Positions 1 through 12,051 of a stretch of DNA of 64,000 bases are shown here, piece after piece; the stretch's first letter is position 1, and each line of letters starts with the position of its first letter. Made by a program: the position numbers and the translations under genes. The notes under the pieces are model-generated. The model worked only from the letters and a program-made list of their open reading frames with translations, searched no databases and was not told the origin of the DNA. Source of the DNA: Hungatella effluvii (GTDB lineage Bacteria > Bacillota > Clostridia > Lachnospirales > Lachnospiraceae); assembly GCF_003201875.1 (NCBI RefSeq), contig NZ_QJKD01000014.1, positions 1 through 64,000 on the forward strand, given 5' to 3'.

Positions 1-3000
1 CCGGAGGCTTTTACGGCATTGGATTCCGACGCCTTCACCGCGTTCTTCCGGTATACCACCTTATAGGTGACATCGGCGTGGTTGACATCCATCAGCTCTT
101 CATCCGCTTCTGTCGTCAGTTCCTCCTCCAGTCTTGGGATTTCATTGGGGTCCAGGGCTGTCTCCTTCCGGCTTCCGCCCCTTACCTCATCCACCACGGC
201 CGCGTTGCTCGGAGAAGCTTTTGACCTCTCATAGACCGCAGTCAGCACCACGTTGGCATCCGGCATGGTAAAGCTGGCTTCCCTTCTTGTGGTCTTATCT
301 CCCAGATCTCCGGCTGTACCGATCGTTGTCTCCCAGTGGGAGAAGGCTTCTCCGGCTCCGTTCACTGCATCCGCCGTGATCTGCACCCGGTCTCCCTTAT
401 GGGCTTCTTCATATCGTCCTGATCCGACGCTTTCTCCGCCCACCTGTTTTATCTCACCGTTTTGCGTCTCTACAATATAGTTTGTCAGTTCCAGCTCTCC
501 GCCCGGGTCTGTGGTAATCACACTTCCTTTGTCAATCAGGCTCTCTGCCGTGATATCCGTCTTTCCAAGCGGCCGGGCCACTACCGTGTACTCACAGTTA
601 TAGTCCAGTCCGGCAAACGTTAAATATGCAGGATTTCCGGCTGGTTTCTTAAAGCCGCCGTTTCCGGCAGCCGGTATTTCCACCACCTGGCCGTTCTTGT
701 CCAGCACCGCGTATTCCGAATCCGGATCTGCCGGTTTTATGATCAGAACAGTCTTTCCTTCTTCCGTCTCATCGTAGATAATCTGGTAATTTGTCTCCAG
801 TACTGGTGTCAGCACTTCCGCCGGTGCGCTGAGTGGATCTGATACATCTCCAATCTGTCCATCCGGCTGTATCTGTGCCGTGCCGTCTGCTTCATATACC
901 TTGTAGTCCGCTCCCGGATAGAGATTGTCAAAGACTGCCCGCTCTGTCAGTTCATTTCCCCGGATCACCTCCAGAATCTTTCCGGATGGGTCTGTCAGGA
1001 TATACTGGTATCCCGGCGTCGTGTTAAATACCGTGATCCGGCCTTTTCCCCAGGTATTTAATCCGGCCAGCGTCTCCGGCTGTGCCACATCTGTTCCGAA
1101 TATATCCGGGTCCGGCCGGAACCGGATTGTGTATACCTGGCCGTTTATAAGACCCGTCTCTCCCGTTACAGGCGTCTGCCCTGCATACCACCGGTCTGTT
1201 AAGTAATTCACCTCCGGCACATACTGCGGCAGGCTTCCCGTGATGTCACTCCACTTTTTATCATAGGTCGTGTGGAGACTCAGTGCCTCTCCTGTACGTA
1301 TGCTTCCATGCTCTCCCGCTTCAAAATGGATATCCACCCATTTCGACGGGTCTTCCTCAAAGTATGCCGTCAGGACTTCTGTCCCGGTGAAACGGTCTCC
1401 TTCTTCCAGAAGGGTCTCCCCGTTGTCCAGAATTCCGTTGTGATTGCCGTCCACAAACCAGCCTCCGAACCGGTAGTACGTATCTGCGCTGGTTCCCGGC
1501 ATCAGGCGTCTTTCCTTCATTCCGCCCAGCGTATATCCGCCTTCTGCTCCCTGTTCCGTTCCATCGTCAATCAGGGCGCTGGTTTTAAAGCTCCCATCTC
1601 CCTGGGACTGGACATCCGGGGACATTCCCTCCTCTGCCATCAGGCTTCCATGGGCGCCTGCAAGATATGTGATATCTGCCCACAGCGCAGGCACACGGCT
1701 GTGCCGGTAGGCCACTGTCTCACTGTCATTGGGCATGGTTCCCGTAAAGTCGTTCCCGTTCCAGCTGATTAACGTGGTTGACGGACTGATGGATTTTGCA
1801 GCCAGCTGATAGCCGTATGGCTGCTCATAGGTGACTGCTCCCTGCGCACAGGCCAGCCCCACCGCTTCCTCCGCCTGATGCAGATGCACCAGCGGCTCCC
1901 GGATATGGGTAAGCCTTTCATCCGAAGTCCCGTTATCCAGATATTCCACGGTCAGGGGATATCCCTCTTCTGTCGGCTCATAGAGGTATGTAATCGTCAC
2001 CGGCTGGTTTGGCATCACTCCATGGAACACCCGGTTGTCGTCAAAATCTCCCTGAAGGCCGCTGACCAGATGGCCATCCGTATCGTCTGCCTCATTTCCC
2101 GCGTCGATACGCACGTCCACACACTCATATCCGTATTTCGTCACCGGCTGGGCCGTGACACTTTCTTCCGGATAGTGGCCTGAGGTCTGCGCATCGGAAA
2201 CCACAGTGCCACCCGCCGTCTCATGGCGTACCGTAAGCAGGGACTGAGCCGCCGTATTGCCGTAATCCACCGTGTAGCGGTACCGCACTGTGGCGTCCTG
2301 GCCCGGCATGGTTCCTGTGAAGGTCCCGGTTGAGCCGTTAAACTGGCCGATCGGCAGGCTGGTTCCGCTGTAGTTATACTCGGTCGGCGTGGTTCCCGAA
2401 TCCGCAAGACTCCACGTATAGCCATGGATCTCTTTTTTCTGGGCCTGGATTGCCGCTTCCACACTGTACGCGTTTTCTGCTGTACCGGTCTGGAATATGA
2501 TATCGCCGCTCTGATTGGAGTATTCTACCGTATAATTGAACTTTACGTTCGGGTCCGGTTCAAAGACCGCATAATAGGTAACCGGAGTTTCCGGGTATAC
2601 GGCTGGAAGCCCGGTGATAAAGTCAGGATTGTCCCAGTCATTGACGGTACTCCAGCCCCGGAAAATGTAACCGTACCGGCTGACGCTTGGCATCAGCGCA
2701 TTGATGCTGTTGCCGGCCATTCCTGTCAGGGAAGGCGGCTGCGGAGTTCCCCCGTTTGCTTCAAACTGAATGCTGGAATCTACTTTTCTGTATTCATAAT
2801 CGATCGTCACATCCTGGTTCGGCATGGTTCCCGTTACTTTTCCATAATCACTGCCCGGATTAAGCTGTGCCTGAAGCAGAGGCGGCGTTCCCTGTTCAAT
2901 GGTAACACCCGCCAGCTCATAGCCGGTCACTTCAGGCGGCACAGCCAGATTCACGCTTTCTCCCGAGCCATACGTTGCCGCCGGGATCGCAGGCGCTCCC

Positions 3001-4835
3001 GTGATTCCGCCTCCTGTATTGATATCTTTGACAAAAAATGTAATCTGGTACCCATTTTTCTTCAGTACTGTATTTCTGTCATGGTTTGCCTCGGCTCCGG
3101 TAAGACCGGCCGTACCGGAGGTAACATACAGTCCGGTTCCTCCGCTTCCCGCCCGGTCGGCGGTAAAGTTATCCACAAACGGACTCGGCGAGATATCAAC
3201 CGCACTTCCCGTCTGAGGCACGGCTACCCTCACCTCCTGGGAGGCCTGCGTTGAGTTTCCGCCTGCCGAGGCATCCGGCAGCTGTGCAGTCGTAATGCCA
3301 ATCGCTGAGGTATCCAGGTCTCCCGCAACCGTAATATATTTACCTGCGGCCAGATACACATTTGCTTTTTCACCGCTTATGAGTGTGTTGCCTTCTATCG
3401 AAATGCGGTTCTGTATCGTAAACTTCCCTGTGCTGTCAAAATTAACCGCGCCTCTGTCACTGGACACATTGCCGGTAACTGTTCCGTAGTTCATCTCCAG
3501 ATTCGCACTTCCCGATACCTGGACCGCACTTCCCAGCCCGTTTGCATTGACCCGGTTATTCTGCAGGGTGGCTCCGCTCATAATACCAATCGTTCCACTG
3601 TCAGCAGAAAGGATGGGAGACGTGTTGCCTGAAGCCTGGGCCAGATTTCCATCCAGCACCAGATTACTGAAACGCATGGTCCCTCCACTTGTACGGAACA
3701 TCGGTCCCGATACCAGCCCTGCGCTTCTGCTGACTGTTATAATATCATCGATTGGAGTTCCCGAACGGCTGTAATCCGAGCTCATAAATGTGATATTGGC
3801 ACCGGAAGGAACGGTAATGGTAGAAGTCAACTCGCCATAATCCTGCAGGTAGATATAACCGACATTGCTGCCAATCTTATTAATGGCTGCTCCCAGCGTC
3901 TTAAGAGGTGTGTCATATGCCCCGACATTGCCGTCATTTCCATAAGCTGCCGATACGTAGTAAGACGGACCTTTTGCTCCGAATGCTACCCTTCTGACCG
4001 CCGTCTCGTACGGACGAAGTGGAATGGTCCAGGAATAGGTAAGACCGGAATCCTTGTTTTTAACACTGTGAGGTCCGTCCGTAAAGTAATAATTAGACCT
4101 TTCACTGTATTGGCCAACCCATTTTGTAGTCGGTTCTGTCAGCCCCAGACTGTCATCATTATAAATACAGTCAAAAGTCTGCTGTGTCTGCTCATTTACC
4201 ATATGAAATCCGCGGCTGTTTGCAGTGAGAGTTGACGCATCCGCCGGATCGCTGGCACCGCCGCCGCTTCTTCCTCCAACCTGTACATCAGTACCGCTGG
4301 CAATCTGAACCGGATTATCTGCATTCGTCTTGTTATACACAATATAATCGACCAGGATCCATTTCTGATCCAGACTGGGATATACCTTCATCTGCACCTC
4401 GACTCCCAGATCGTCAAACGCCTGCACACCGCCATTGGTTGATATCGCCAGATTTTTTCTTCCCCCGGTTCCATTCTGCTTCTGTATGACTGTTTCATAC
4501 CCCCGATGGCTGTAAGTCGTTATAACCGAGGATGACCGGTCTCCCGTATATGGATTTTCTGCGCCAATCAATGCGGCGTTTTCGATGCCCTCAATGTCAA
4601 AGTATCCCGTGTTGCCCTGATTCCACTTATAAGCGGTCGTCAGTCCGCCCCCATTGCTTTTCATTCCCTGCGCCGGCTGGAGTTCCGTTCCCGCCGCCAT
4701 GGCAGTCACGGTCAGGCCAGGCACAGGCGGCAGTATTGCGAGGGCAAGGGCAAGCAGAGATGCAGTTCCTTTTTTTATGATCCGCCGCAGATTCAATCCT
4801 CCTGCCACGGAATTACTTTTTCGAAATCTGTCCAT
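1..4835 (-). CDS. Giant secreted surface repeat protein (C-terminus beyond window)
   Basis: An open frame of 1,611 codons runs from an ATG at 4835 off the left edge with no stop. The first ~48 residues are a Sec signal peptide: basic start, Leu/Ala-rich core, cleavage likely near TAMAAG. Residues ~290-525 look like a right-handed beta-helix, with repeated short Gly/Asn/Ser-rich strands. After that come InlB B-repeat-like units (for example ~688-725, ending YGYIFRGWST) and many beta-sandwich repeats with recurring GTMPNQ/MPGQD turns. It is the last visible gene of a four-gene secreted operon, 17 bases after its neighbour, with a weak AGAGG-type site. It is probably an adhesin or wall-associated protein. 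No enzyme motif is visible, and the anchor, if any, is outside the window. Confidence 0.85.
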   Translation of the reverse strand, partial: MDRFRKSNSVAGGLNLRRIIKKGTASLLALALAILPPVPGLTVTAMAAGTELQPAQGMKSNGGGLTTAYKWNQGNTGYFDIEGIENAALIGAENPYTGDRSSSVITTYSHRGYETVIQKQNGTGGRKNLAISTNGGVQAFDDLGVEVQMKVYPSLDQKWILVDYIVYNKTNADNPVQIASGTDVQVGGRSGGGASDPADASTLTANSRGFHMVNEQTQQTFDCIYNDDSLGLTEPTTKWVGQYSERSNYYFTDGPHSVKNKDSGLTYSWTIPLRPYETAVRRVAFGAKGPSYYVSAAYGNDGNVGAYDTPLKTLGAAINKIGSNVGYIYLQDYGELTSTITVPSGANITFMSSDYSRSGTPIDDIITVSRSAGLVSGPMFRTSGGTMRFSNLVLDGNLAQASGNTSPILSADSGTIGIMSGATLQNNRVNANGLGSAVQVSGSANLEMNYGTVTGNVSSDRGAVNFDSTGKFTIQNRISIEGNTLISGEKANVYLAAGKYITVAGDLDTSAIGITTAQLPDASAGGNSTQASQEVRVAVPQTGSAVDISPSPFVDNFTADRAGSGGTGLYVTSGTAGLTGAEANHDRNTVLKKNGYQITFFVKDINTGGGITGAPAIPAATYGSGESVNLAVPPEVTGYELAGVTIEQGTPPLLQAQLNPGSDYGKVTGTMPNQDVTIDYEYRKVDSSIQFEANGGTPQPPSLTGMAGNSINALMPSVSRYGYIFRGWSTVNDWDNPDFITGLPAVYPETPVTYYAVFEPDPNVKFNYTVEYSNQSGDIIFQTGTAENAYSVEAAIQAQKKEIHGYTWSLADSGTTPTEYNYSGTSLPIGQFNGSTGTFTGTMPGQDATVRYRYTVDYGNTAAQSLLTVRHETAGGTVVSDAQTSGHYPEESVTAQPVTKYGYECVDVRIDAGNEADDTDGHLVSGLQGDFDDNRVFHGVMPNQPVTITYLYEPTEEGYPLTVEYLDNGTSDERLTHIREPLVHLHQAEEAVGLACAQGAVTYEQPYGYQLAAKSISPSTTLISWNGNDFTGTMPNDSETVAYRHSRVPALWADITYLAGAHGSLMAEEGMSPDVQSQGDGSFKTSALIDDGTEQGAEGGYTLGGMKERRLMPGTSADTYYRFGGWFVDGNHNGILDNGETLLEEGDRFTGTEVLTAYFEEDPSKWVDIHFEAGEHGSIRTGEALSLHTTYDKKWSDITGSLPQYVPEVNYLTDRWYAGQTPVTGETGLINGQVYTIRFRPDPDIFGTDVAQPETLAGLNTWGKGRITVFNTTPGYQYILTDPSGKILEVIRGNELTERAVFDNLYPGADYKVYEADGTAQIQPDGQIGDVSDPLSAPAEVLTPVLETNYQIIYDETEEGKTVLIIKPADPDSEYAVLDKNGQVVEIPAAGNGGFKKPAGNPAYLTFAGLDYNCEYTVVARPLGKTDITAESLIDKGSVITTDPGGELELTNYIVETQNGEIKQVGGESVGSGRYEEAHKGDRVQITADAVNGAGEAFSHWETTIGTAGDLGDKTTRREASFTMPDANVVLTAVYERSKASPSNAAVVDEVRGGSRKETALDPNEIPRLEEELTTEADEELMDVNHADVTYKVVYRKNAVKASESNAVKAS

Positions 4836-4852: not shown

Positions 4853-6496
4853 CTATTCAAAATTCAGCCGTTCCTCATCAGGCAGATGATCCAGAACCGC
4901 TTCTGAATCGTAATTTACGATCAGACCGCCGGAATATTTGTCCTCCCGGCTGCTGCCATCGTAATGATAAAAGCCTGGACCCTCATCTCCGTTGTACCAT
5001 CTCGGTTTATCATCATCCTCGACTCTGGCCGCAAATCTGTTGTTTAAAAGAATCAACCAGCCGCCTTCTCTGTCTTTTATGACTTTCTTATCTCCCGTCA
5101 TAATCTTTCCATTGGTGCCTACAACCCGGTAAGTATCCTCATTCTCCTGAACTACGCCATAACCGTATTCCTGATCCGCTTCCAGCCTCAGTCCATTGAT
5201 ATAGAAGGAATTCTTCGTTTTCCGAAGCTGGTTCCGGTTGCCGTAGGCGATACCGTTGCTTCCAAAACCAAATGTATAGACCCCGTCTTCCAGCTCCACC
5301 TTCACCTCTGCACCGGTCTGCATGGAGCCATCGTTGAGTTCATCCGGAGAAAATAAGTATAAGTCTGCCTTCTCCAGGCCATAGAGATCACCGTTAATAA
5401 AATTTTCCGCTGTCCAGCTGTCGGTATCATACTGGGCTACAAAGGTGTCTTTCCCGTCAAACAGCACGAAGCCTGTCCGCATTCTTCCCAATCCGTCAAA
5501 CGCATAGTACCTGTCATAGACCTTTCTGATCCGGTTCCGGTACACCTCTCCATCCTGGTCCGTATGCCACCAGCTGTACTCCCCATCGCTGTAATCCTGC
5601 TCATCCAGATTTTCTGACGGGCACATCCAGAACCACGCATTCTTTAACAGCCGTCCGCCGTCGTAGCCTGCAAAGTATTTCGCTGACTCTGAGCTGGTAG
5701 GATTACTTCTGTCCGCATTGCTGACGCTGGCCACCTGGCTCCACCACGGAAGCATGATTCCGTATTCGTCAAAGCCGTAGGTATTGCCGCCGATGGTCTT
5801 CTGCCTGATCCTGTCACCACTGCTTTTCAGTTTCTTGAAGTTATCATCGAAATACAGCCATATCTCCTGATACTCGCTGTAATTCCGTCCGGTGACGCTG
5901 CTGTCCAGGTCATCCGCTCCTCCCAGTGTCGTGGAGCTATAATCCATCCAGACATTGCATAAGAGCGCACCATCCTCTCCCGCATAGTAAAGACCGTCAA
6001 CCAGCGGGTTATCATCTTCTGTCAGCGGCTCTCCCGTCTCAGTGAGCCAGCCGGTAAGCATCTTTCCCTTTTCATCAAAAACGTATGTCTTTCCGTCAAT
6101 CACCCGCTTAAAACCGCTGGTCCTCCGATACGCTTTTCCATTGTCGCCGAAATAGTACCAGCCATCGGCATAGCCCTCCTGCTCCCGGCCTTCCGACCAG
6201 ATCCAGCTGTTCTGCACCCGTCTTCCGTCCTTATCAGCATAGTACAGTCCATTTCCCAGTTCAATGAAGCTGTCTCTCACCATTTTTCCATCTGAATCCA
6301 GATAAAACCAGGCATCCTTTGACTGTTTCCATACATTGGTCACCGGCTGGTCGCTCTTATCCAGATACATCCATTCCCCGCTGTCACTGGTCCAGCCTTC
6401 CACCGCATACGCGGTTTTCATCTGAGTCTCTGACAGGAGTAAGGCCGATAATACAAACACGGCCGCTGTAAATGTAAATTTCCTCTTTCTCATCCC
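4853..6496 (-). CDS. Secreted cell-wall-binding repeat protein
   Basis: About 547 residues. The signal peptide begins MRKRKFTFTAA and is cleaved near TAYA. The rest is made of aromatic/Gly repeats of the choline-binding or glucan-binding type (CW_binding_1: W.YLDSDGKM, YYADKDGRR, WYYFGDNGKA). The first ~190 residues hold regular units and later ones are degenerate. No catalytic domain is recognised, so it may be a pure wall-binding protein or a scaffold for the giant protein encoded next. An upstream ATG at 6514 is possible, but GGAAGG precedes the ATG at 6496 at good spacing and the shorter protein begins with a proper signal peptide. Confidence 0.82.
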   Translation of the reverse strand, partial: GMRKRKFTFTAAVFVLSALLLSETQMKTAYAVEGWTSDSGEWMYLDKSDQPVTNVWKQSKDAWFYLDSDGKMVRDSFIELGNGLYYADKDGRRVQNSWIWSEGREQEGYADGWYYFGDNGKAYRRTSGFKRVIDGKTYVFDEKGKMLTGWLTETGEPLTEDDNPLVDGLYYAGEDGALLCNVWMDYSSTTLGGADDLDSSVTGRNYSEYQEIWLYFDDNFKKLKSSGDRIRQKTIGGNTYGFDEYGIMLPWWSQVASVSNADRSNPTSSESAKYFAGYDGGRLLKNAWFWMCPSENLDEQDYSDGEYSWWHTDQDGEVYRNRIRKVYDRYYAFDGLGRMRTGFVLFDGKDTFVAQYDTDSWTAENFINGDLYGLEKADLYLFSPDELNDGSMQTGAEVKVELEDGVYTFGFGSNGIAYGNRNQLRKTKNSFYINGLRLEADQEYGYGVVQENEDTYRVVGTNGKIMTGDKKVIKDREGGWLILLNNRFAARVEDDDKPRWYNGDEGPGFYHYDGSSREDKYSGGLIVNYDSEAVLDHLPDEERLNFE

Positions 6497-6536
6497 GTTT
6501 TCCTTCCAATCCAATTAGTTATTTATGTAAACCCTT

Positions 6537-7160
6537 TTACAGGGACTGTTTTAAATATACAGACATCTTCTGCCGCCCAAATTCGATGGCTTCTTCATGA
6601 GTTGCAAAAAAAATATCAATACTGTTTCCCTTGATCGCCTGTCCCACATCTTCCACCTGGTAAGTCACTCCGTTGATCACAATACTGCTTCCGAGGGTAA
6701 TAACTTCGGGATCTGCCGCGACCGTATGTCCAGGTTTAGGAACCGTCTCCATTTTTGTCAGTTTAATCTCTTTTTTTCCACAGCAGAGATCGCAGCCGCA
6801 GTAACCAGTCACTTCAAACTCTCCTAAATATGTTGATTCGCTGATTTCTGTCTGCAGGGCGTTTTTATTCACCGCACCTTCTCCAGGCATTTCCACAGGT
6901 ACTGTGCTCTCCGCTGTTTTATCCAGAACGCCGGGACCCACTGTATTTCCCGCTGTTTCCTCTAAAACGCCGGGTGCTTCTGCGCTCTCCAGAACATCTG
7001 TAAGCGGCGGTACGTCAATGTAATCCCGGCCGGAGGCCCCTTCCGAAACAAAAGAGTAAGCCCTTGCTGCCACAATCACCGTAAAACCGGCCACAGTCAG
7101 AAAACGGATCATTTTTCTCCGAATCTGCCGCCGCTTTTCCGCTCTCCGGAACTCAGTCAT
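6537..7160 (-). CDS. Membrane-anchored 3D (Asp-Asp-Asp) domain protein
   Basis: A basic N-terminus is followed by one membrane segment (MIRFLTVAGFTVIVAARAY), a Thr/Glu/Pro-rich linker and a C-terminal 3D domain. The three family aspartates are visible in AADPEVI, VEDVG and SIDIFF. A GYCGCDLCCGK Cys cluster opens the domain. 3D domains resemble MltA-type lytic transglycosylases and the YabE/YorM group, so peptidoglycan cleavage outside the cell is likely. The open frame extends to a GTG at 7316, but that start overlaps the upstream gene by 109 bases. I prefer the ATG at 7160; an ATG at 7112 right before the membrane segment is also possible. Confidence 0.8.
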   Translation of the reverse strand: MTEFRRAEKRRQIRRKMIRFLTVAGFTVIVAARAYSFVSEGASGRDYIDVPPLTDVLESAEAPGVLEETAGNTVGPGVLDKTAESTVPVEMPGEGAVNKNALQTEISESTYLGEFEVTGYCGCDLCCGKKEIKLTKMETVPKPGHTVAADPEVITLGSSIVINGVTYQVEDVGQAIKGNSIDIFFATHEEAIEFGRQKMSVYLKQSL

Positions 7161-7207
7161 TCTGCAGCACTTTGGTGAAGCTGCTCTGCGCCCTGATCTG
7201 TCAGTTC

Positions 7208-7993
7208 TCACGAAAGTCCGCTGTGCGTGGGATCTGCCTCCATTTCTTCTTCTGGCATAAGCTTCCACCGGCGTTCGCCCAGTTCTCTGTCCCATGTGAT
7301 ATCGCAATATTTCCACCCCCCATCAATCCAAACCCGGTTCCACGCGTGGTTCCCGCCATAGACCGGTTCGCAGATCATCCCTGACATTCTGCACAGTGTC
7401 AGGTAAGCTGAGACATAGCCCCAGCATACGGAACGCCCCTCGATGACAGCATCATATACGGTTTTCCGGTTTTGTTCCGTGTCATATTCCACATTGCTGT
7501 AGATCCACTCGTAAAAAAATGAGGCTTTCTCCGACTCATTCATTCCGGCGCCTGACGCGGCAATTTCCAGCAGCCTTGCTTCCGTCTGTCTGTGCTGAGC
7601 TGCAGCCTGGGCAGGATTGCCGCACTGTACATAAATTACCGCATTCTCCCCACGGGTCCCTGCCGCCAGCCAAATCTTCTCTTTTCCGAGATAGATGTAG
7701 CGGTAAAAATAACGGCCAAAAGATAAAGCGTCCTCCACTGTATGAAATACGACTCCCGTATCCTTCCATTCAGACAGATCTTCACTGTTTTCGATCAATA
7801 TTAACAGTTTTTCTCCACAGACCTCATACTCCGAATTTCTTTCGGTCATTTCCTCGGCGTATCTGCCTCGTTTCTCCTGATCCGCCCCCTGGAGCTGTGG
7901 CTGTATATCCATTCCACAGGCCGGCAAGCTCCAGAAAGCGGTAAGACAGAGAGAAAGGAAAAACAGCAGACATGGTTCACGGATTCCTCTCAT
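7208..7993 (-). CDS. Secreted transglutaminase-like protein
   Basis: A 261-residue protein with a signal peptide (hydrophobic residues 9-25). LPAC at 23-26 could be an atypical lipobox. The C-terminal half is a transglutaminase-like core with a Cys-His-Asp triad: Cys190 in RSVCWGY, His216 in GGNHAWN and Asp231 in CDITWD. Bacterial members of this fold are proteases or crosslinking enzymes acting on wall or surface proteins. It is the first gene of the surface operon, and its start lies only 17 bases from the left inverted repeat of the invertible promoter segment. Inversion would therefore place a promoter directly upstream. Confidence 0.82.
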   Translation of the reverse strand: MRGIREPCLLFFLSLCLTAFWSLPACGMDIQPQLQGADQEKRGRYAEEMTERNSEYEVCGEKLLILIENSEDLSEWKDTGVVFHTVEDALSFGRYFYRYIYLGKEKIWLAAGTRGENAVIYVQCGNPAQAAAQHRQTEARLLEIAASGAGMNESEKASFFYEWIYSNVEYDTEQNRKTVYDAVIEGRSVCWGYVSAYLTLCRMSGMICEPVYGGNHAWNRVWIDGGWKYCDITWDRELGERRWKLMPEEEMEADPTHSGLS

Positions 7994-8009
7994 CGTTAAT
8001 CCTCCCTTT

Positions 8010-8039
8010 TACAACCGAATATCTCTTTTGTTGTAAAAA
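8010..8039. repeat. Left inverted repeat of invertible segment (30 bp)
   Basis: Thirty bases beginning TACAACCGAATATC are the exact reverse complement of 8245-8274. Identity ends sharply at both sides. This is the repeat nearer the transglutaminase gene start. Together the two copies bound a 205-bp segment, the arrangement of site-specific inversion sites. Confidence 0.9.
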
Positions 8040-8116
8040 GAGGAGAAAAACCAGTTCAGAATGGGATACTTGCAGAAAATGCATGAAATGTTCTGGGAAA
8101 AATGCATGGTTTTTAA

Positions 8117-8153
8117 GCAGATCGAATTTATTTTTTTGTTCGGTCTGCTTTTT
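8117..8153 (+). terminator. Rho-independent terminator inside the invertible segment
   Basis: A 10-bp stem (GCAGATCGAA pairing with TTCGGTCTGC, one wobble) with a T-rich loop is followed by five T on the plus strand. It has no T tract on the minus strand. After inversion it would face the recombinase gene and lie upstream of the promoter, insulating the surface operon from read-through. Confidence 0.6.
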
Positions 8154-8186
8154 GTGTCGAAAAATAGAAAAAAAGGAAGAAATATA

Positions 8187-8215
8187 TAGATTTAAAAAAA
8201 TTTATGTAGTATAAT
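8187..8215 (+). promoter_or_regulatory. Promoter inside the invertible segment, now pointing right
   Basis: TAGATT, a 17-base spacer and a consensus TATAAT lie in AT-rich DNA. In the present orientation it fires toward the 3' end of the recombinase gene (antisense) and away from the surface operon. Flipping the segment would aim it at the gene starting at 7993. The -35 is weak; the -10 is perfect. Confidence 0.65.
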
Positions 8216-8244
8216 CAAACTAAATTCATATCTGATTCAATTTA

Positions 8245-8274
8245 TTTTTACAACAAAAGAGATATTCGGTTGTA
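8245..8274. repeat. Right inverted repeat of invertible segment (30 bp)
   Basis: Exact reverse complement of 8010-8039. Bases 8248-8274 are also the last eight codons and stop of the recombinase gene (reading YNRISLLL then TAA). Because the repeats are identical, inversion leaves the recombinase C-terminus unchanged. Confidence 0.9.
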
Positions 8275-9138
8275 CGTTGTCACCAACAGTCCCAGCTTTT
8301 CCAGCTGCATCCGGTGGCGGCTTCCGCTTTCTTTCGTATAAATCCGTGTCGTATTCACATCCCTGTGTCCCAGAATATCAGCCAGCTTTGCCAAATCTTT
8401 TTCGGCCTCATAGTATGTTTTTGCGAAAAGATGTCTTAAATTATGAGGGAATATTTTGTCTTTTTCGACTCCCGCCTCAGCACCAAGGGCTTTCATTTCC
8501 CTCCAGACATTGCTGCGGTCCAGTGTATTTCCTGTTCTGGTGATAAAAATTGCTCCCTGCATAATTCCTCTGCGCATTGCGTACTCAAGCAGCATGGTAC
8601 AGAGCTGTCTCGTCAGAAGAACGGTGCGCACCCTTCCCTTGCAGTCTACCTCCGCCCTTCCTATACGCGCTGCCTCCACGGTCACATAGGCAAGTTCAGA
8701 GATACGGATTCCGCTGGAGCAGATGGTCTGAAGCAGCAGCGAAAGCCTTTCATTTCCCTTACTCATCGCGGCTTCCACAAGTCTCTGATACTCCTCCTTT
8801 GACAACTCCCGGCTCTCCTGACAGAACGGACTGCTGCCGAGCTTTAAGAATCTGACCGAACAGTCCTCCCAATGGTAAAATCTGAAATAGCCGTTAATCG
8901 CAGACAGCGCTCCGTTTACAGTGACCGGTGCGAATTGGCCTCTCAGATATTTCTTCCACATCAGGACAATTCCCCTGTCCACGTTTCTTCCTCTCGTATA
9001 GTTCCTGAACTGCTGCAGATAATACAGATATTTTTGTACTGTCCCTTCACTTTTTTCGCAGCTGGCCAGCCAGACGCAGTAGCTGCTGATACTCTCTTCT
9101 GTAACGATCTTCCTTTTTTTATTTTCTATTTTTCTCAT
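8248..9138 (-). CDS. Tyrosine recombinase (probable invertase of adjacent segment)
   Basis: A 296-residue phage-integrase-family recombinase. It has an N-terminal SAM-like core-binding domain (~15-95) and a catalytic domain with Arg145 (SSGIRISEL), probable Lys168, His232 and Arg235 (HNLRH), His258 (LGHRD) and the nucleophile Tyr267 (TRIYTKE). The start has a strong site, GGAGGACATC. It resembles XerC/D-like invertases such as those working on phase-variable promoters in Clostridia and Bacteroides. Its 3' end lies in the right inverted repeat, which ties it physically to the switch. A small hairpin (TATCCG/CGGATA) with a T run lies in its leader near 9,200. Confidence 0.88.
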   Translation of the reverse strand: MRKIENKKRKIVTEESISSYCVWLASCEKSEGTVQKYLYYLQQFRNYTRGRNVDRGIVLMWKKYLRGQFAPVTVNGALSAINGYFRFYHWEDCSVRFLKLGSSPFCQESRELSKEEYQRLVEAAMSKGNERLSLLLQTICSSGIRISELAYVTVEAARIGRAEVDCKGRVRTVLLTRQLCTMLLEYAMRRGIMQGAIFITRTGNTLDRSNVWREMKALGAEAGVEKDKIFPHNLRHLFAKTYYEAEKDLAKLADILGHRDVNTTRIYTKESGSRHRMQLEKLGLLVTTYNRISLLL

Positions 9139-9383
9139 GATGTCCTCCGATTAGTAAACGTTATTTCTTTTAGTTTATCCAAATACAAAAAAAGGCATTC
9201 AAATATCCGCTGTAAACGGATACTCAAATACCACGTTCCTTCTCTGTGATTTATCACTGAAAAAGGATAATATTTCCATTTTTTGTATTTAAATAAGAAC
9301 AATCATAAGGCCTTGCTTTTTATTTGTCAATTATATCTTCAGATTTTTTTACGTTTTAAGCTAACTTTTTTTACCAGTTAATA

Positions 9384-9688
9384 CCTTAATCGTTACAGTT
9401 CACTCCCCACCAGGAGCACCGCAGTCCGGTTTGGCCGGGCAGGCTTGCTCAGTCTTTCCTGTGACTTTGCAGGGTATTAGAAGTTCTTAGCGCGCAAAAT
9501 TTTTCGTTCAGGGGAAATTCCCACTTGTTTGAGTGCAGCGAGTTTGGGAATTTCCCCTGGTTTTTAGAAAAATTCTGCACGTTTAGAACTTCTTATGCCC
9601 GAAACCGGAACAGGAAAGACTGAGCAAGCCTGCCCGGCCAAACCGGACTGCGGTGCTCCTGGTGGGGAGTGAACTGTAACCCTTAATC
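9384..9688. mobile_element. MITE-like element: 289 bp with 71-bp perfect terminal inverted repeats
   Basis: The element spans 9392-9680. Bases 9392-9462 are the exact reverse complement of 9610-9680. The interior is also partly palindromic (AGAAGTTCT/AGAACTTCT; CAGGGGAAATTCCCA and its complement), so the whole unit could fold into one long hairpin. CCTTAATC flanks it on both sides (9384-9391, 9681-9688), an 8-bp target duplication. It has no ORF. It reads as a non-autonomous transposable element; a second inversion cassette is a less likely alternative. Confidence 0.75.
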
Positions 9689-9717
9689 GTTTCTTTCACT
9701 CCTCCCCCTGTTAACAA

Positions 9718-9746
9718 TTGAATTAACCGTTTGAATCATGTATAAT
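9718..9746 (+). promoter_or_regulatory. Promoter of the GGDEF/EAL gene
   Basis: TTGAAT, a 17-base spacer and a perfect TATAAT, ending 37 bases upstream of the start at 9784. The start has a GGAAGGGAG site. The rest of the intergenic stretch 9,139-9,783 holds the recombinase leader and the MITE-like element. Confidence 0.7.
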
Positions 9747-9783
9747 ATTTATAAATTCAATCGTTAGCGGAAGGGAGATTACG

Positions 9784-12051
9784 ATGGAAGACAGAGGTGT
9801 GAAAAAACATATTACTGTTTCTGTTATTCTGGTTTCCTTCATCAGCGCAGTTCTGCTCCTTATAGGCGGCATTATCTATTCGAGCATCAAAGGCGCCCAG
9901 GAAAAAGAGGCGCAGAAGTATATGGAAGAGATCGTTTCACAGTATAAAAATATTATTACGGCACAGATCGACGGAGATTTGCAGACCTTAAGTGCCCTGG
10001 CTGTATTTGCAGGGTATAATGATACCATTGATTTGAATTTCACCCTTTCCCGTCTGGAAGAAGAAAGCAGACGCAACGACTTTATCCGTATGGGATTCAT
10101 CTCTCCCGACCGGATTGGATATTTTATCGATACTGACGGTGTGAAGCATTTCAACGAAGATGTCAGTGAAGAAGCTTTTATTCAGAAGGCATTAACCGGT
10201 GAATGCGTCGTGTCTGAGGTCATGGAGGACCGTTTTTCAGGAAATTCCGTCGTCTGCTACGGCGTCCCCATCACCCATAACGGATGTATCATTGGCGCAA
10301 TCACAGCAACTCGTCTTACTACCAACCTTTCCGCCATTATAAGCCAGGAAGTTTTCGACGGTGCCGCCTTTGTACATATTGTGGACCAGGAAGGTAATTT
10401 TATTATCCGGTCCAGCCATGCAGTCATTAAGAAGCAGTTAAAGAATCTCTTCGACGATGGGGAGATCGCAGACAGCATCCGCGAATCCATACTTGCCAGT
10501 ATGGGAAATGGCAGCGGCTCTTTCGCCTCCTTCCGTTATATGGGGGAAGATTACTGGGTAACCTTTATTCCCATCGGTATCAACGACTGGAATCTATTCT
10601 GCCTGGTGCCTCAATCATTTTTGAACCATAATTTCCACACGCTGTTTACCGTATTTTTGGGCGTGATGATTTGCATTTTCTTTTTATTCGGTATCCTGTT
10701 TCTATACATTTATAATCTGCTGAAGAAGGAACACCACACGCTGCAGGCATTTGCATATAAAGATATTCTGACCGGCGCCGATAACCGGAACCGTTTTATC
10801 ACGGATCTCCCCGCCTTGCTTTTAGAACCGGCAGATTATGCCATGGTACTGATGAATGTTAGTGGATTTAAGTTTGTTAATGAATTTTTTGGTTTTTCGA
10901 AAGGAAACCTTCTTCTGCAGCATATTGCCAGGGTTCTGCAGGATACAGTCAGGGATGGAGAACGGTTCTACCGGGACAGCGCCGATCACTTTGGCATGCT
11001 GATTTACTACGAAAACAAAGAGAAACTCATTGCCCGAATACAAAAAATCAGTCAGGAAATAAACAACTATACCGTAAGTCCCAACCAGGATTACCGCATT
11101 AACTGTAATTTTGGAATTAATATAATCCGGGCGGATAATCTACAGTATAAAAATAACACTTCTCCCGACACCGCTGTCAACGGAGCCCTGCTTGCATTAA
11201 ACAGCGTTAACGGCAACACCTCCAACCCCATCGCTTTTTATAATGAGGAGCTTCATGAGAAAGCGCGCAAAAAAGTGGAGATTGAGAGTCAGATGCATGC
11301 GGCGCTGGCAAACGATGAATTTCACATGTATCTGCAGCCCAAGTACTATCTGAACGACGGATCGCTGCACAGCGCTGAAGCCCTTGTGCGCTGGTATACG
11401 AAAGACGGCATGATTCATTATCCGGATGAATTTATACCAGTGTTTGAAGAAAATGGATTTATCACAGAGCTCGACATGTATATGCTGGAGGAGGCCTGCC
11501 GGAGAGTCTCCCATTGGATCCGGCAGGGTTATAAGATCAGCCCAATCTCGGTAAACCAGTCCAGAGTATTTTTCTACGATGAAGAATACCTCGACAAATT
11601 CCATGAAATAGTTGACCGGTATCATATTGATCCCTCCCTGATTATTCTTGAAGTAACCGAAAGTGTGGCTATGAGTAATTTGGCTCAGGTTAAGATGGTA
11701 ATCAATAAGCTCCATAAAATTGGATTTTCCATATCAATGGATGACTTTGGAAGCGGATACTCCTCTCTCAATACGTTAAAAGACTTAGATATTACGGAGT
11801 TAAAGCTGGATAAGGATTTTCTATCCGAGCAGTCTACCTCAGATCGCGGAAAGGTTGTGATCGAGAGCATAATTCATCTCGCCAAGGCACTCTCCATCAT
11901 CACGGTTGCGGAAGGTATTGAAAATGAGGCCCAGCTGGAATTTTTAAAATCCATCTGCTGCGATATCGGACAGGGGTATTACTTTGCGAAACCGATGCCT
12001 GCCGATGAGTTTGAGCAAACGATTCTGACAAATGACAAGGAACTGGACTGA
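9784..12051 (+). CDS. Membrane cyclic-di-GMP phosphodiesterase (CACHE-GGDEF-EAL)
   Basis: 755 residues. There is a membrane segment at ~10-32, an extracellular CACHE-like sensor to ~290, a second membrane segment (~293-318), a GGDEF-family domain (~330-480) and an EAL domain (~505-750). The GGDEF signature is replaced by SADHF, so cyclase activity is unlikely. The EAL domain keeps AEALVRW, the DDFGSGYSSL loop and VAEGIE, so it probably hydrolyses c-di-GMP. It stands alone with its own promoter and terminator. The extracellular ligand cannot be read from the sequence. In Clostridia c-di-GMP often governs surface proteins and motility, so a link to the nearby surface operon is possible but only inferred. 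Confidence 0.88.
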   Translation: MEDRGVKKHITVSVILVSFISAVLLLIGGIIYSSIKGAQEKEAQKYMEEIVSQYKNIITAQIDGDLQTLSALAVFAGYNDTIDLNFTLSRLEEESRRNDFIRMGFISPDRIGYFIDTDGVKHFNEDVSEEAFIQKALTGECVVSEVMEDRFSGNSVVCYGVPITHNGCIIGAITATRLTTNLSAIISQEVFDGAAFVHIVDQEGNFIIRSSHAVIKKQLKNLFDDGEIADSIRESILASMGNGSGSFASFRYMGEDYWVTFIPIGINDWNLFCLVPQSFLNHNFHTLFTVFLGVMICIFFLFGILFLYIYNLLKKEHHTLQAFAYKDILTGADNRNRFITDLPALLLEPADYAMVLMNVSGFKFVNEFFGFSKGNLLLQHIARVLQDTVRDGERFYRDSADHFGMLIYYENKEKLIARIQKISQEINNYTVSPNQDYRINCNFGINIIRADNLQYKNNTSPDTAVNGALLALNSVNGNTSNPIAFYNEELHEKARKKVEIESQMHAALANDEFHMYLQPKYYLNDGSLHSAEALVRWYTKDGMIHYPDEFIPVFEENGFITELDMYMLEEACRRVSHWIRQGYKISPISVNQSRVFFYDEEYLDKFHEIVDRYHIDPSLIILEVTESVAMSNLAQVKMVINKLHKIGFSISMDDFGSGYSSLNTLKDLDITELKLDKDFLSEQSTSDRGKVVIESIIHLAKALSIITVAEGIENEAQLEFLKSICCDIGQGYYFAKPMPADEFEQTILTNDKELD

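Follow-up and report, generated by a model that had tools for sequence, protein, structure and literature searches.

A very probable invertible promoter, assembled in its OFF orientation, beside a wall-protein operon of Hungatella effluvii

Invertible promoters (invertons) linked to tyrosine recombinases have been published for Clostridia. According to the passages of Jin et al. (2025, PMC11892184) that describe inverton group 139, 32 of its 33 members are from Clostridia and the group is linked with tyrosine-type invertase group 35. Over culture passages, two of its examples change orientation, and one of these two also differs between mucin-agar carriers and supernatant; in the example from Clostridium sp. 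D5, arms of 26 nt flank 205 nt. In the fimE-fimS-fimA region of E. coli, a recombinase gene, an invertible promoter segment and a surface operon follow in order, and the segment carries a promoter and a terminator between arms of 9 bp (relevant sections of PMC9993118 and PMC2784873); the terminator acts on fimE in the OFF state (PMC2784873). The cwpV switch of C. difficile, as treated in the corresponding parts of PMC2784873 and PMC5903667, has repeats of about 21 bp, 195 bp apart, is ON in a minority (about 14%), and controls a large wall protein. Its recombinase, RecV, belongs to the XerC/XerD family; recV lies away from the switch and acts on several such switches, and the segment does not include the cwpV promoter. 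Among C. difficile switches, the non-published orientation ranges from 0.5% to 67% in the figures given by Sekulovic et al. (2018, PMC5903667), so that a single assembled orientation says little about flipping.

We analyzed a stretch of 64,000 nucleotides of H. effluvii (hereafter, the window; contig NZ_QJKD01000014.1 of assembly GCF_003201875.1, positions 1 to 64,000). We found that positions 8010-8274 very probably constitute a working invertible promoter, assembled OFF beside an operon of predicted wall proteins. The features are listed below; G001 is the nearest relative.

3 to 4835, minus strand: giant protein, truncated at the contig end, with InlB-type and List-Bact repeats
4853 to 6514, minus strand: choline-binding-repeat protein
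6537 to 7316, minus strand: 3D-domain protein; start as listed, the true start may be further in
7208 to 7993, minus strand: transglutaminase-like protein, first operon gene; start codon 16 nt from the left arm
8010 to 8039, plus strand: left inverted repeat arm, with the core site TACAACCGAATATCTCTTTTGTTGTA at 8010-8035
8040 to 8244, strand not applicable: interior of the invertible segment, from the repeat search and flipped homologues
8115 to 8150, plus strand: terminator-like hairpin with a T tract, behind the promoter and in the same direction; conserved with changes in G001
8187 to 8215, plus strand: promoter-like site TAGATT-17-TATAAT, directed toward the recombinase in the assembly (OFF); motif once in each of eight homologous segments
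8245 to 8274, minus strand: right inverted repeat arm, with the core site at 8249-8274; contains the last nine recombinase codons, stop included
8248 to 9138, minus strand: tyrosine recombinase of 296 aa, from its reading frame, domain and structure matches

The adjacent tyrosine recombinase would act on both arm sites and invert the segment between them. In the ON orientation, the internal promoter would drive the leftward operon of wall-associated proteins; transcripts of the recombinase gene would in addition terminate at the hairpin behind the promoter and not reach the operon. In the OFF orientation, as assembled, the promoter would be aimed at the recombinase gene from its 3′ end, and between its first gene and the arm the operon would have no space for a promoter of its own.

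The locus resembles group 139 in host class, linkage to a tyrosine-type recombinase and size (the D5 example being close to the window); a wall operon such as that of the window is absent from the description of the group in the passages of PMC11892184. The first-pass annotation had not recognised the locus, and we likewise found no paper on the wall-operon locus in the open-access literature. The kind of switch is more familiar than that annotation implied: the locus is new, but it is probably akin to the published Clostridia invertons linked to tyrosine recombinases, as far as the same passages describe them. The likeness to fim lies in the order of parts, the recombinase gene preceding the segment and being read in the same direction as the operon, and in the placement of a putative promoter and terminator inside the segment. 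Unlike fim, the window family has arms of about 26-30 bp, one recombinase was seen at the window locus, and the host lineage differs. A fimE-like terminator working in OFF was considered and rejected, as the T tract of the window hairpin faces the other way; by sequence, the window places no terminator on the recombinase transcript in OFF. The polarity thus differs from that of fim, since it is in the ON form that the window hairpin would affect the recombinase transcript, whereas the fim terminator acts in OFF. Judged in this manner, the layout is fim-like, but we do not file the switch as fim-type. With cwpV, the locus shares a XerC/XerD-family recombinase, a comparable arrangement of repeats and the predicted control of a large wall protein, whereas its recombinase gene lies beside the switch. 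As to where the operon promoter might lie, a promoter-like site upstream of the recombinase and a conserved motif inside the segment are both present.

An inverted-repeat search returned arms of 30 nt each, 100% complementary and with 205 nt between them, exactly where the first-pass annotation had placed perfect 30-bp repeats. As in an inverton, a short segment between inverted repeats is adjoined by a site-specific recombinase gene. Even with up to three mismatches allowed, the 6.86-Mb genome contained only these two copies of the arm, and the core site is nearly palindromic (9 of 13 pairs). In G001, 27 nt of the arms are unchanged although the recombinase is only 75% identical. The repeat score was 30 in the window, whereas none of the 66 dinucleotide-shuffled regions 3′ of related recombinases reached 16, which excludes a chance origin of the repeats. 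A scan of the core site against viral contigs gave 0 matches. A mobile-element integration site was dropped as a reading because the arms are inverted and no cargo lies between them; a simple hairpin was also dropped as a reading of the repeats.

The recombinase frame is whole, matches Phage_integrase (2.7e-26) and solved XerC-like, XerA, XerD and XerH chains, and contains GIRISEL, HNLRHLFA and LGHRDVNTTRIYT, which we take to carry the catalytic residues. The gene had been described as abutting the segment; it does adjoin it, but its frame (9138-8248) runs into the right arm and terminates there. The recombination site coincides with the last nine recombinase codons, the stop among them, in each of the eight close homologues considered below, and enzyme and site are tied together by this overlap. 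In many paralogues, the site instead starts 3′ of the recombinase stop codon. Upstream of the gene lies a strong promoter-like site, TTGACA-17-TATGAT (9330-9302, minus strand, 11/12 consensus match), with an 18-pair terminator-like hairpin between it and the start codon; this arrangement of promoter-like site and hairpin in the leader (9194-9330) suggests attenuation. When 7000-10500 was searched against Rfam for riboswitches or leader RNAs, nothing matched up to E 1. At 9386-9686 lies a palindromic element, about 300 bp long and with 120-nt arms that are 88% complementary, which recurs in at least 40 distinct places in the same genome among the matches listed, for which 40 of 90 candidates were scored.

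We investigated the association of such repeats with related recombinases in 299 genomes of the family, sampled evenly from a larger group. Recombinase matches at E up to 1e-60 were found in 48 of the 299 genomes (G000 and G001 among them). Loci were picked by recombinase similarity alone, and six of the 72 distinct loci were left out for lack of sufficient downstream sequence. An inverted repeat pair (score of 16 or more) was present just 3′ of the recombinase at 51 of the 66 remaining loci and absent at this threshold from 15. Upstream regions had such a pair in 3 of 67 cases and dinucleotide shuffles in 0 of 66. Many of the loci are related, so that 51/66 and 3/67 are counts rather than independent trials. 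Recombinase-plus-repeat modules are widespread in the family, and many arms follow ACAACATAAT-N4-ATTATGTTGT or a variant of it. A scan of genome contigs yielded 8 distant loci (39-55% identity). One related module (L097, G250:C2) has 89-nt arms composed of three tandem copies of the site per side. That the window repeats are no recombination site at all, and represent a terminator, a dispersed repeat or a long hairpin instead, is extremely unlikely. Terminators often carry inverted repeats, and the palindromic element at 9386-9686 is dispersed and nearby, but the arms at 8010-8274 are far apart (205 nt), single-copy, nearly palindromic at their core and linked to a recombinase family, and homologous interiors are turned between co-linear flanks, as described below.

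In the genus of G059, a recombinase match was found in 8 of 9 genomes (10 matches in total). We compared eight modules, namely those of the window (L003) and G001 (L004) together with six of these matches (L033, L108, L110, L111, L112 and L113). The comparison omitted L114 and L116 as more distant, L109 because its contig ends 79 bp past the stop, and L115, whose repeat scored 15 points. The arms begin exactly 27 nt before the recombinase stop in all eight. When both strands were searched, each segment contained one match to AGTA[TAC]A[AC]T, with TRG at the -35 place and 17 bp of spacing, and the distance from the motif to the outer arm edge was 48-49 nt in six modules and 58-59 nt in two. Because the geometry is so constant in the close clade, an assembly suffices to recognise the switch and to tell its state. 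The motif is directed toward the recombinase in L003, L004, L033 and L111 and toward the downstream genes in L108, L110, L112 and L113, so that both orientations occur among homologous loci, four of each. The first-pass annotation had staked its reading on relatives that keep the repeats and include flipped segments, and these eight modules bear it out on both counts. Since segments of this kind lie in one direction or the other in different relatives, that of the window is very probably a flip switch for surface genes; such switches have already been described in gut bacteria.

Interior alignments favored opposite orientations for L110/L111 (z of 5.8 flipped, 0.4 same), L108/L111 (5.3 and 0.7), L111/L112 (4.5 and -0.1) and L003/L113 (5.1 and 0.4). 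The interiors of L003/L004, L108/L110 and L112/L113 are clearly in the same orientation, and many pairs are ambiguous (L003/L108, 2.2 same and 2.7 flipped; L003/L112, -1.6 and 2.8; L004/L112, 2.5 and 1.6). L110 and L111 lie upstream of the same regulator gene (BTAD domain, 70% identical), indicating that the locus is shared and the segment alone is turned. The gene after the switch in G300, G306, G303 and G302 is this BTAD regulator, not a wall operon; it was identified by Pfam in G300 and G306 and by identity in the others, and the contig of L108 ends before the downstream gene. Among the three wall-operon loci (window, G001 and G059), no flipped copy was seen, and all three face the recombinase. 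An all-against-all comparison of interiors from 69 modules gave 11 pairs passing as flipped, of which some between distant modules (e.g., L026/L049) may be due to chance, and 48 as same, of which one is a single locus entered twice (L033/L106).

The promoter-like site in the window consists of a -10 TATAAT (8210-8215) and a weak -35 TAGATT (8187-8192) on the plus strand, 17 bp apart, and it faces the recombinase gene, away from the operon. An interior promoter with a consensus -10 aimed away from the operon had been proposed from the outset; the -10 and its direction stand, with the qualifications that the -35 is weak and that a stricter consensus scan listed neither a promoter nor a terminator inside 8010-8274. 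The scan is silent here because the -35 matches at only 3/6 positions and the loop of the hairpin exceeds the length that it allows. Our call at 8187-8215 is based on conservation across the homologues, and its activity is predicted. Its direction agrees with the OFF state that had been assigned to the assembly.

The hairpin with its T tract lies behind the promoter, in the direction of the promoter, in six of the eight modules (L003, L004, L033, L108, L110 and L111), and L112 and L113 gave weak hits only. A T tract also occurs on the opposite side of the hairpin in L033, L108, L110 and L111, making it two-way; on that side, L004 gave weak hits only and L003 none. Since the T tract of the window hairpin is one-sided, recombinase transcripts would meet a terminator only in the ON form. 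Such a one-way hairpin, facing the recombinase transcript only after inversion, would also suit a cwpV-like attenuator, in which transcription comes from the recombinase promoter outside the segment and inversion decides whether a terminator precedes the operon; the 11/12 promoter-like site upstream of the recombinase would transcribe toward the operon. We nevertheless regard this arrangement as very unlikely, because the interior promoter motif occurs once, conserved and equally spaced from the arm, in 8/8 homologues, whereas the hairpin is weak in L112 and L113 and has T tracts on both sides in four others.

The single orientation shared by the window and G001 raises another alternative, namely that the switch is locked or decayed, keeping inverton anatomy but no longer flipping, with the operon silent or read through from the recombinase. 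Read-through from the promoter-like site at 9330-9302 would be possible, as the hairpin has no T tract in the recombinase direction. Even so, decay appears unlikely given that the arms match at 30/30 positions and retain 27 nt unchanged in G001 despite recombinases at 75% identity, and that the recombinase frame is whole with its motifs kept. A working invertible promoter remains our preferred reading.

The recombinase and the operon (from 7993 leftward) are both encoded on the minus strand, with the segment between them. The 16-nt gap between the left arm and the operon start codon contains GGGAGG, and the corresponding gap in G001 is 20 nt, leaving no room for a separate operon promoter. The operon had been described as comprising four genes, which is what the window contains; G001 keeps all four and adds a fifth, encoding a second giant protein. 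In G059, the operon encodes 3D-like and choline-binding-repeat-like proteins and two giant proteins (2069 and 1475 aa), and no transglutaminase match was found in this locus. Upstream of the recombinase, the window has a divergent gene for a dCache-GGDEF-EAL protein (9784-12051), which is not the neighbor in G001 or G059; these have a response-regulator and partner pair and a MurQ-like gene, respectively, as named by eye from translations. These differences indicate that recombinase, switch and operon stay together in varied settings.

Of 68 modules put through a consensus promoter caller confined to the near-arm stretch (margin of 2), 44 were directed toward the recombinase, 7 were directed downstream and 17 stayed undecided. 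For the first 53 modules, the counts were 30 and 3, and shuffled interiors averaged 7.9 and 7.6. The ratio of 44 to 7 is to be read as a tendency, for which a binomial p-value is unreliable, because many modules are related and the caller is imperfect (L007 was undecided, with a difference of -0.3, although alignment shows it to be turned). A possible but doubtful explanation is that the switch limits itself: in OFF, antisense transcription from the promoter would enter the recombinase gene at its 3′ end and hold enzyme levels down, whereas in ON this transcription would end and the recombinase transcript would gain a terminator, giving more enzyme and a fall back to OFF. If true, this would explain why 44 of the 51 callable modules face the recombinase.

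The surface worn by each cell bears on colonization, phage sensitivity and immune recognition. The genome of the window contains five recombinase-plus-repeat modules, which together would make a testable phase-variable surface programme. The four further modules are L081 (C10), L082 (C31), L083 (C5) and L084 (C18); the genes after their switches encode an HTH protein and polysaccharide functions (C10 and C31), a choline-binding-repeat protein (C5) and a GGDEF-EAL protein (C18). The recombinases of L006 (C10) and L007 (C31) are 81.5% identical over 259 aligned residues, their arms differ at one base, and each switch is followed by a short HTH gene (78% identical) and then polysaccharide genes. 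Their interiors scored 121 flipped versus 59 same, with shuffles at 58 +/- 9 (best 84), and their flanks both align directly, making them paralogous switches in opposite orientations between co-linear flanks. The interior of L005 from G001 likewise aligned to that of L007 with scores of 125.5 flipped and 57.5 same.
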